Source: Phycisphaerae bacterium RAS2
GTDB taxonomy: Bacteria > Planctomycetota > Phycisphaerae > UBA1845 > UTPLA1
DNA length: 64,000 nt
Assembly (NCBI GenBank): GCA_007753915.1
Contig: CP036352.1
Span: forward strand, 372,001-436,000
Direction: 5' to 3'
This document shows positions 27,638 to 31,550 of this stretch, piece after piece. A program made the translations under genes and the position numbers. The notes below the pieces were generated by a model. It worked only from the letters and a program-made list of their open reading frames with translations. It was not told the origin of the DNA and ran no database searches. Position 1 is the stretch's first letter. Each line of letters starts with the position of its first letter.

Positions 27638-30600
27638 ATGAACACACCCCGATCCGCCGCCCAGATTCGCCGCGAATTCATTGAGTATTTCGTCCGGCGC
27701 TGCGGCCATACTTTCGTCCCCAGCAGCCCGGTCGTCCCGCATGACGACCCGACGCTGATGTTCACCAACGCCGGCATGAACCAGTTCAAGCCGATCTTCC
27801 TCGGCCAGCGCGCGCCGGACGTCGACAAATGGCCCGGCGCGACGCCCGGCATGGCCTCCCGCGCCGCGAACACCCAGAAGTGCATCCGCGCCGGCGGCAA
27901 ACACAACGATCTCGACGACGTCGGCCACGACACCTATCACCACACGTTCTTCGAGATGCTCGGCAACTGGTCCTTCGGCGATTACTTCAAGAAAGAGGCC
28001 ATCGAGTGGGCGTGGGATTTGCTCACCAACGTTTGGGGCATTGATCCCGGCCGCCTGCACGCGACGTATTTCGAGGGTGACGCGAGCGAGGGTCTGGAGC
28101 CGGACAACGAAGCGCGCGATTTGTGGCTGAAGATTCTGCCTCCCGAGCGCGTCCACCCCGGCAACAAGAAGGACAACTTCTGGGAGATGGGCGACACCGG
28201 CCCCTGCGGGCCGTGCAGCGAGGTTCACATCGACCTCACGCCCGACAAGAGCGGCGGCAAGCTGGTCAACGCCGGCGACGCGCGCGTGATGGAAATCTGG
28301 AATCTTGTCTTTATTCAGTTCAACCGCGGCCCGGACGGAAAGCTCTCGCCCCTGCCCGCCAAGCACGTCGACACCGGCATGGGTTTCGAGCGCATCTGTT
28401 CCGTCATCCGTGGAACCGAAACCGGCCGACTGGGCCAGGTCAGCAATTACGACACCGATGTCTTCACGCCGATCTTCGCCGCCATCCAGCGCGTCACCGG
28501 CGCGGCGGCGTATACGGGGTTGCTCGAGAGCGGAACACAGGACTCAAACCTCAAGCCCCAGGTCTTCAAAGACGTGGCCTACCGCGTCGTCGCCGATCAC
28601 CTGCGCACGCTCACCTTCGCCATCACGGACGGCGCGTCGCCGAGCAACGAAGGCCGCGGGTATGTCCTGCGGCGCATTCTGCGCCGCGCGGTGCGCTACG
28701 GGCGACAATACCTCGGCACGAGCAAGCCTTTCCTGTGCGAGCTGATTCCCGCCGTCGCCGACGCGATGGGCGAGGCGTTCCCCGAACTGCGCAGCGCCCA
28801 CGGCGGGAAGAATGTGGATCACGTCGCCGCGATCATCCGCGACGAAGAGGCATCATTCATCAAGACGCTCGACCGCGGCATTGCGCTGTTCGACGAAGCC
28901 GCCAAGTACGCGGCGCAGCATCACCACGGCCGCATCAGCGGCGAAGACGCCTTCAAGCTGCACGACACCTACGGATTCCCCATCGATTTGACGGAGTTGA
29001 TGGCCGAAGAGCGCGGCATGACGGTGAATATTGGCGAATATGAGCGGTTGATGGAGGAGGCGCGGGAGAAGGCACGGGGTGCGGGCAAGTCTGAAGCGGC
29101 GATGCCGTTAGGCATTGAGGGCGCGCCGCGCGCCACGGACGACACACCGAAGTTCACGTCGCGTTCGGTTCGGTCGAAAGTGATCGCGTACTCACATGAG
29201 GCCCGATGGCACGGTTCCGGCCCTGCTCCAACGGGCTGTGCAGTAGGCATCGTCGTCGCATCCACCTGTGCGTATGGAGAGCAGGGTGGGCAGGTCGGTG
29301 ATAGCGGTATGATCAGAACTGCAAACGGCGAGTTTCGTTTCGAGGAAACGAAACGGCTAAATGACATTGTCATTCATATCGGAAAGGTTCTACGAGGAAA
29401 CGTTTCAATTGGCGACGAAGCATCGATCGAAGTTGACTCGTTTCGTGAAACCATCACGCGCAATCACACCGCCACGCACCTCATGAACTGGGCGTTGCGC
29501 GAGGTGCTGGGCGAGCACGTGCAGCAGAAAGGCTCGCTCGTCGATCCCGACAAGACGCGGTTCGATCTGTCGCATCACGCGGCCATCACAGAGGACGAGC
29601 TGGCCCGCATCGAGCAACTGACGAACGAGCAGATCGCCCGCGACCTGCCCGTCTTCACCAACGACAACGTGCCGGTCGATCAGAAGAGCGCGATGAAGAT
29701 CAACGGCCTCCGCGCCGTCTTCGGCGAAAAATATCCCGATCAGGTCCGCGTCGTTTCCATCGGCGTGCCCGTCACCGACGAGGACGCGAAGCGCGCTCGC
29801 GACAAGAGCGAGTGGTCCGGCGCCGGCTCGCTGCTCGGCTCGCCCGGCAATCCGGAATGGCGGAAGTACTCCGTCGAGTTCTGCGGCGGCACGCACGTGA
29901 AGCGCACCGGCGAGATTGCGCAACTTCCCAACGGCTCCCGCGCCGACCGTGCGTTCGTACTCGTTGAGGAGTCAGCCGTCGCCAAGGGCATTCGTCGCGT
30001 CGTCGGCGTGACGGGTGAGAAAGCCGTCGCGGCGCAGCAGGCGGCCGATCAGCTATCGCGCGAATTGGACGCAGCGCTCACCGCCGCGCGCAATGAATCG
30101 CCCAACGAGCCGTCCAACGAGCCGCGGGCTTCAGCCCGCGCGGCCGCTCAAACACAAGTGCCGCCTCCGACATCGGAACAGCTCGTGGCCGACCTGAACG
30201 CGCGACTTGCAACAACCGAATTGCCCGTGCTGGCGCGGCATCATCTGCGCGCCAAGCTCGCCGAGTTACAGGAACTTGCGAAGAAGCAGAAGAAAGAGCA
30301 GTCCAAGGCGGGAGCGGCCGACGTGATCGCCCGGGCCGACGAACTGCTCGCCGCCGCGGAGCGTGTCAACGGCGTGGCACTCATCTGCGGCGAACTGGGC
30401 AGCGCCGGCGTGGAACAGCTCCGCGGCGCCTGTGACTCGCTTCGCTCCCGCGCGGGCAGCGCCGCCATCCTGCTGGCCGCCGAGAACGACGGCAAGGCCG
30501 TGCTGCTTGCGGCGATGACGGCCGACGTGGTCGCGCGCGGGATTAAGGCAGGCGACCTCATCAAGGAGATCGCGCCGCTCGTCGGCGGCAAGGGCGGCGG

Positions 30601-30697
30601 CAAGCCCGACCTCGCCCAGGGCGGCGGCCCGGACGCGGGCAAAATCGGCGACGCGATTGCGGCTACGGCGGCGTGGCTGAAAACGAAACTCGGCTAG
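27638..30697 (+). CDS. alaS: Alanine--tRNA ligase
   Basis: 1019 aa, longer than the usual ~875. Class II core at the N-terminus (RREFIEYFVRRCGHTFVPSS, FTNAGMNQFKP, GDTGPCGPCSEVHID). The editing domain has RNHTATHLMNWAL near 610 and zinc ligand CGGTHVKRTGEI near 748. A C-Ala/DHHA1 domain ends the protein with GGGKPDLAQGGG. The extra length comes partly from a linker near residues 820-850 that contains a dispersed DNA repeat. The segment at about 29147-29455, the beta-barrel before the editing site, has plainly different codon use. The frame is intact throughout. Confidence 0.96.
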   Translation: MNTPRSAAQIRREFIEYFVRRCGHTFVPSSPVVPHDDPTLMFTNAGMNQFKPIFLGQRAPDVDKWPGATPGMASRAANTQKCIRAGGKHNDLDDVGHDTYHHTFFEMLGNWSFGDYFKKEAIEWAWDLLTNVWGIDPGRLHATYFEGDASEGLEPDNEARDLWLKILPPERVHPGNKKDNFWEMGDTGPCGPCSEVHIDLTPDKSGGKLVNAGDARVMEIWNLVFIQFNRGPDGKLSPLPAKHVDTGMGFERICSVIRGTETGRLGQVSNYDTDVFTPIFAAIQRVTGAAAYTGLLESGTQDSNLKPQVFKDVAYRVVADHLRTLTFAITDGASPSNEGRGYVLRRILRRAVRYGRQYLGTSKPFLCELIPAVADAMGEAFPELRSAHGGKNVDHVAAIIRDEEASFIKTLDRGIALFDEAAKYAAQHHHGRISGEDAFKLHDTYGFPIDLTELMAEERGMTVNIGEYERLMEEAREKARGAGKSEAAMPLGIEGAPRATDDTPKFTSRSVRSKVIAYSHEARWHGSGPAPTGCAVGIVVASTCAYGEQGGQVGDSGMIRTANGEFRFEETKRLNDIVIHIGKVLRGNVSIGDEASIEVDSFRETITRNHTATHLMNWALREVLGEHVQQKGSLVDPDKTRFDLSHHAAITEDELARIEQLTNEQIARDLPVFTNDNVPVDQKSAMKINGLRAVFGEKYPDQVRVVSIGVPVTDEDAKRARDKSEWSGAGSLLGSPGNPEWRKYSVEFCGGTHVKRTGEIAQLPNGSRADRAFVLVEESAVAKGIRRVVGVTGEKAVAAQQAADQLSRELDAALTAARNESPNEPSNEPRASARAAAQTQVPPPTSEQLVADLNARLATTELPVLARHHLRAKLAELQELAKKQKKEQSKAGAADVIARADELLAAAERVNGVALICGELGSAGVEQLRGACDSLRSRAGSAAILLAAENDGKAVLLAAMTADVVARGIKAGDLIKEIAPLVGGKGGGKPDLAQGGGPDAGKIGDAIAATAAWLKTKLG
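30115..30144. repeat. GCCGCGGGCTTCAGCCCGCG element inside alaS
   Basis: A 30-bp palindromic element beginning CAACGAGCCGCGGGCTTCAG. The reverse complement recurs without a mismatch at 45426-45455. Here it is translated in frame as part of a low-complexity linker (NEPRASARAA). Confidence 0.8.
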
Positions 30698-30701
30698 TTT
30701 C

Positions 30702-31412
30702 ATGAGTTGGATTCACGAAATCCCCGATGCCGCCGCCACCGGGCCGCTCAAGGCCATGTACGACGCCGCGATTCAGCGCGCCGGGCGCGTGCACAACATC
30801 CTGCGCGTCATGAGCCTCAATCCCGACGCGCTGCGCGATTCGATGGCGATGTATCGCACGCTGATGTTCGGGCCGTCGGGCCTGTCGCGGGCGCTGCGCG
30901 AGTTCATCGCCGTCGTCGTGAGCCGGGCCAATCAATGCTTCTACTGAACACAGGCGCACGCGAACGATCTCCGTGTTGAGATCGAACGGGATTGGGAGTC
31001 GCTCACGGGGACGGCGGCGCCCCTTCGCGCCGAACCAGACGGCGATGCGAGTCCGAGCCGCGCGCCCAATCAGAGCCGCGACCGTCAGGGAGCGCCAAGT
31101 GACGCCGATGCGCGGCTGGATGCATTCGTGCACCAGGCCGTGGATGACTGGCGAGCGCTGGCACTGACTCCTGCGGTGCGAGCCTTGCTCGATCATGCCG
31201 AGAAGCTGACACTTCGCCCGGCGGATTGCACCGAGCCAGACATCGCGGCGCTGCGGGCCGTCGGCTGGACTGATCGCGACATCCACGACGCCGTGCAGGT
31301 GACAAGCTATTTCAATTACATCAATCGCGTGGCCGATGCGCTCGGCGTGAGGGACGAGCCGGGCATGCGGCGATGGGGAATGGGCGCAGCCGGCGAAGGG
31401 GCAAACCCGTAG
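30702..31412 (+). CDS. AhpD-like (carboxymuconolactone decarboxylase fold) protein, probable selenoprotein
   Basis: One frame of 236 residues if the TGA at 30945-30947 is read as selenocysteine (position 82). Upstream part: MSWIHEIPDAAATGPLKAMY, then REFIAVVVSRANQCFY. Downstream part, same frame, no other stop: TQAHANDLRVEIERDW, then ALLDHAEKLTL and VQVTSYFNYINRVADALGV. Together they give the AhpD/peroxidase-related CxxCxxxH motif as C79-F-Y-U82-T-Q-A-H86. AhpD proteins reduce peroxides through this pair. A hairpin matching bacterial SECIS rules starts 17 nt after the TGA. A repeat-derived linker (about residues 105-140) and a repeat-derived stop codon are also present. It begins 4 bp after alaS. 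The alternative is a nonsense-mutated pseudogene. Confidence 0.78.
30965..30984 (+). promoter_or_regulatory. Bacterial SECIS-like hairpin
   Basis: CGATCTC (30965-30971), loop CGTGTT (30972-30977), GAGATCG (30978-30984): a perfect 7-bp stem with a G at the second loop position. The loop begins 24 nt after the TGA. As I recall the bacterial SECIS model, it asks for a loop 16-37 nt after the UGA and a G in the first two loop bases; both hold. The loop bases GTGTT are also complementary to AACAC at 30947-30951, so a pseudoknot with the recoding site is possible. Confidence 0.7.
31046..31096. repeat. Dispersed repeat (PDGRGSD type) inserted in the selenoprotein gene
   Basis: The minus strand of this stretch encodes LPDGRGSDWARGSDS, a phrase I associate with repeat-derived ORFs in planctomycetes. 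On the plus strand it is read in frame as an Arg/Ser/Pro linker (PSRAPNQSRDRQGAP) absent from typical family members. A weaker copy is at 35919. Confidence 0.5.
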
Positions 31413-31432: not shown

Positions 31433-31550
31433 CTGTCTCAATCCCGAACCCGCTCCCTTATGGTCGCGGCACGGATCGAAGGGCAAGCGCTTCCGGCGTC
31501 AGAAATCACAATATCATGCCGCCGCCGGCAATTCCGCGTAAACTGTCGTC

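Follow-up and report, generated by a model that had tools for sequence, protein, structure and literature searches.

We find that a gene at positions 30702–31412 (+ strand) of the 64,000-nucleotide stretch of DNA analysed here (the window) almost certainly encodes a selenocysteine-containing TIGR01926 member of the AhpD/CMD fold, in which the UGA at 30945 would be decoded as selenocysteine (Sec) by way of a SelB-bound hairpin. The assignment of this 236-residue AhpD-like, peroxidase-related protein, with Sec at residue 82, draws on the translation, on matches to TIGR01926 and PF02627 and on the predicted AhpD fold. The window covers positions 372001–436000 of a single-contig genome of 4,324,589 bases; there was no plasmid match, and we ruled out a plasmid origin for the DNA.

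The frame runs from an ATG at 30702 to a TAG at 31410–31412, and its translation confirmed two statements of an initial annotation of this DNA: that the frame is continuous apart from a single in-frame TGA (30945–30947, residue 82), and that this TGA takes the place of the second Cys in the AhpD motif CxxCxxxH, here C79-F-Y-U82-T-Q-A-H86. With UGA read as Sec the product has 236 residues. Under translation table 11 the same frame breaks up into two ORFs, one of 81 aa and one of 94 aa that starts at a GTG at 31128, and standard annotation would truncate the gene to the 81-aa fragment. Directly upstream, across a gap of 4 nt, lies an alaS-like (alanyl-tRNA synthetase) gene (27638–30697, + strand), a label taken from the gene's own sequence and not from a family search; this adjacency is not conserved at the other homologous loci checked.

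The initial annotation had seen no selA, selB, selC or selD in the window and had called for a search of the whole genome. The Sec machinery indeed sits outside the window: selA, selB, selD and a tRNA-Sec are all present in the 4.32-Mb genome. The tRNA-Sec scores 71 bits and has the anticodon TCA (UCA). selB precedes selA, with an overlap of 4 nt (locus L132, 3553–6974), and selD (L012, 1396–2628, − strand) has an in-frame TGA of its own, within CAGU, so that selD itself is probably a selenoprotein. A second AhpD-like gene, at 54 kb in the genome (L002, 1249–1803, − strand), also has TGA at the equivalent codon (CLYU), and its hairpin reads CGGACCTC-CGTGCC-GAGGTCCG. The group formed by this paralogue with L073 and L079 lacks the AhpD active-site Glu and has Val in its place.

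A relative from the same order (L056) and a Phycisphaerae MAG (L024) encode one and the same protein, and on this basis we place the genome in the class Phycisphaerae of the Planctomycetota. We searched 294 genomes of the phylum and 298 genomes of the class with stops read through. In nearly all close matches the N-terminal segment held exactly one stop, a TGA, and not the further stops that would have marked a broken frame. In each of the 58 distinct homologues extracted from the phylum and class searches, TGA occupied the codon for residue 82 or its aligned residue, while 18 more distant homologues had TGC or TGT there; an alignment proposed at the outset to see whether position 82 is Cys or Sec thus returns Sec in the 58 relatives and Cys in the 18 more distant ones. 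Homology in the same frame on both sides of the TGA, as first reported for the window gene, was borne out in these relatives. Within the 294-genome phylum sample, selA was found in 82 of the 84 genomes for which a TGA form is listed, compared with 110 of the 210 others (Fisher P 4e-16, a descriptive value, as the genomes are related); the two TGA-form genomes with no selA match at the cut-off used, G050 and G061, are both draft assemblies. Sec forms of the TIGR01926 family are therefore widespread in the phylum, occurring in at least 84 of the 294 sampled genomes among the matches listed.

These comparisons bear on the possibility that the TGA is a true stop, that is, a nonsense mutation that left an 81-aa pseudogene remnant and a downstream frame that is either dead or starts at GTG 31128. 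Such a reading fits the two ORFs that table 11 yields, as well as a repeat-bearing insert farther along the frame that is found in none of the aligned homologues. Against it stand the TGA at the equivalent codon in 58 distinct homologues, the Sec machinery in the genome and the conservation of the frame between the TGA and 31128 (H86, D89, L90, R91, E93), and we consider it very improbable.

Downstream of the UGA, at 30965–30984 (+ strand), lies a candidate bacterial SECIS hairpin with a perfect 7-bp stem and a 6-nt loop, CGUGUU, whose second base is G (CGATCTC, 30965–30971; CGTGTT, 30972–30977; GAGATCG, 30978–30984). The initial annotation had described the same coordinates, stem, loop and G2, all of which hold, and had placed the start of the hairpin 24 nt after the TGA; the 24 nt is in fact the spacer from the UGA to the apical loop, and the stem begins 17 nt past the TGA. 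Folded in isolation, the hairpin has an energy of -8.2 kcal/mol. The published bSECIS limits are a loop of 3–9 nt, a stem of 4–16 bp, G in the first two loop positions, 16–37 nt from UGA to loop and an energy of at most -7.5 kcal/mol (PMC13188914). With 6 nt, 7 bp, G at position 2, 24 nt and -8.2 kcal/mol, the hairpin falls within all of them, in line with the bacterial SECIS geometry first claimed for it.

We also asked how often such a hairpin arises by chance. Synonymous resampling with local codon usage yielded one as good in 4.8% of cases, and of all the TGA triplets that the window contains, 1.7% are followed by a hairpin with 7 or more Watson-Crick pairs in the stem, a loop G and the correct spacing. 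A 51-nt fold was no more stable than its shuffles (z -0.45), and a 60-nt fold favoured a different structure over the hairpin; we dropped single-sequence folding as proof of a SECIS, since its values (z -0.45 and -0.14) are weak. An Rfam scan of the 64-kb window returned nothing at gathering thresholds. Taken alone, the hairpin of the window sequence is borderline above chance, with P about 0.05. Because it lies so near the chance level, it is the comparative evidence that makes a SECIS convincing.

Among the relatives, at least five of the six core pairs are present at the fixed position in 50 of the 58 Sec homologues and in 3 of the 18 Cys homologues, and a hairpin within the published bSECIS limits occurs anywhere in the allowed range in 49 of 58 and 3 of 18, respectively. 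Across the 58 distinct Sec homologues, 84% of stem cells are paired, versus 31–53% in slid controls. At base pair 24–37 these homologues have CG 43 times, UA 7 times and UG once. The pair links two codons: an Asp codon tracks the residue five codons on, GAC going with GTC/Val (43:1) and GAT with ATC/Ile (1:7), and because the third base of the Asp codon follows the choice between Val and Ile, the stem pair is kept. A same-genus homologue (L060) has C-G where the window has a U-A pair, and one sequence (L031) carries a double change from CTC/GAG to TTC/GAA. A column-shuffle control was beaten only moderately (covariation score 4/500), since the amino acids D-L-R-x-E also constrain several positions of the stem. 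The putative SECIS stem is thus conserved in position and covaries in the family, which also makes it a clean target for a reporter. The proposal, made at first from the window alone, that UGA is read as Sec draws support from the Sec machinery of the genome, from the TGA in relatives and from this covarying candidate SECIS.

A Cys codon, TGC or TGT, turned into TGA by an error of sequencing or assembly would agree with the Cys found at residue 82 in the more distant homologues. The TGA recurs at the equivalent codon in independent genomes, however, including that of the same-genus L060, and the SECIS-type hairpin goes with the TGA forms and rarely with the Cys forms, so that an error is extremely improbable. 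Decoding of the TGA as some other amino acid, by global reassignment or by leaky near-cognate readthrough, would leave the frame open, as any reading of TGA does, but many homologous genes end in a TGA stop, the only TGA of this gene sits at the catalytic Cys position and the genome has a dedicated tRNA-Sec, whose anticodon is UCA, and we give the idea negligible weight.

The protein scores 143.9 bits against TIGR01926 (peroxidase-related), for which the curated cut-off is 81.8, and 48.4 bits against PF02627; all 29 aligned members match TIGR01926 at E <= 0.001. Its score against NF041238 (AhpD_rel_CFYUT), 68.2 bits, is far under the curated cut-off of 175, and we rejected membership despite the CFYUT string. 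TIGR00777, AhpD proper, gives 16 bits, short of its curated cut-off of 191.95. An AlphaFold2 model of the window protein (pLDDT 91.6) matches the PDB structures 6k40, 3c1l, 2prr and 2oyo, with 6k40 and 3c1l the best. E67, C79, Y81, U82 and H86 reproduce the five-residue spacing of the AhpD active site, whose proton-relay residues are known from M. tuberculosis AhpD and P. aeruginosa PA0269 (PMC3141380). Fold, family model and active site together point to a TIGR01926 'peroxidase-related' AhpD-like protein. It may be a small thiol/selenol peroxidase or an AhpC-type adaptor, and its role is likely to be peroxide reduction.

We propose a model in which SelB binds the hairpin, the loop of which is 24 nt past the UGA at 30945, and brings Sec-tRNA(Sec) to that codon, where the ribosome would read through to make the 236-residue protein and would not stop at residue 81. 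U82, which corresponds to Cys133 of M. tuberculosis AhpD, would then act as a reactive selenolate, with C79 as the resolving thiol. The sequence itself establishes the frame, where the TGA lies, the Sec machinery, the conservation of the SECIS, the family and the fold model. Sec insertion, peroxidase activity, the parts assigned to U82 and C79 and the nature of the substrate are all predictions from sequence.

Alignment with 28 homologues shows about 24–28 extra residues in the window protein after residue 102. The corresponding insert of about 24–28 codons (31008–31094, + strand) is absent from the homologues and is modelled with low confidence, at a pLDDT of about 60. It ends in a copy of GAGCCGCGACCGTNAGGGAGCG (31073–31094, + strand), which reads in frame as SRDRQGA. 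At no more than one mismatch, this 22-bp repeat has 60 copies in the genome and 8 in a same-genus genome; a reversed control pattern had zero. In-frame copies also occur in a 1006-aa ORF and a peptidase-like ORF (PSRDREGA, PSRDRQGA), so that at least three lie in frame within protein-coding ORFs as (P)SRDR(Q/E)GA (L025, L095, L100). In the selenoprotein gene the copy falls in a loop of the protein and downstream of the SECIS, and therefore need not disturb either. Tentatively, the short dispersed repeat could be an in-frame peptide-coding insertion element that entered the selenoprotein gene and other enzyme genes and left recoding intact, although we hold this to be somewhat less than an even chance. 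As such it would resemble the Rickettsia palindromic elements, being a dispersed repeat inserted in frame as peptide-coding sequence, with some copies in inverted pairs. The members of these pairs are about 60–95 bp apart. A degenerate GAGCCGCGACCGTNAGGGAGCG-like copy lies at 31451–31472 (− strand). A literature search on the 22-bp repeat found nothing, and a survey of REP sequences mentions Planctomycetes in general terms only (PMC3733652).

Selenoproteins of the AhpD-like CxxU type are already on record from the Sargasso Sea (2005; PMC1088965) and from GOS (2008; PMC2398784), and the entry 'AhpD-like protein, TIGR01926, CxxU' appears among the prokaryotic selenoprotein families of a 2026 review (PMC13188914), in agreement with the statement in the initial annotation that such proteins exist in bacteria. 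Use of Sec in Planctomycetes has likewise been published (PMC4807772). Selenoproteins of this family have been recognised since 2005, and the family is common across the phylum; the finding is therefore correct but ordinary, and the gene is one more good example and not a discovery. With it, Phycisphaerae gain a clear case of Sec use, and the picture of selenoprotein families stays as it was. With NF041238, the model for an alkylhydroperoxidase-related (seleno)protein, the window protein has in common the CFYUT peptide around Sec but not equivalog membership. It shares the all-helical fold and the position of the CxxC site with 3c1l, 6k40, 2prr and 2oyo, which have Cys where the window protein has Sec. 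M. tuberculosis AhpD and PA0269 share with it the spacing E-x11-C-x-(H/Y)-C-x3-H (PMC3141380), but overall identity is low and they too have Cys instead of Sec. The closest likeness is to the known AhpD-like CxxU selenoproteins, where the family model, the CxxU motif, Sec in place of the second Cys and a SECIS near downstream are all alike; the one difference seen is that the window protein has an insert of about 24 residues, specific to its lineage, that carries a dispersed repeat.
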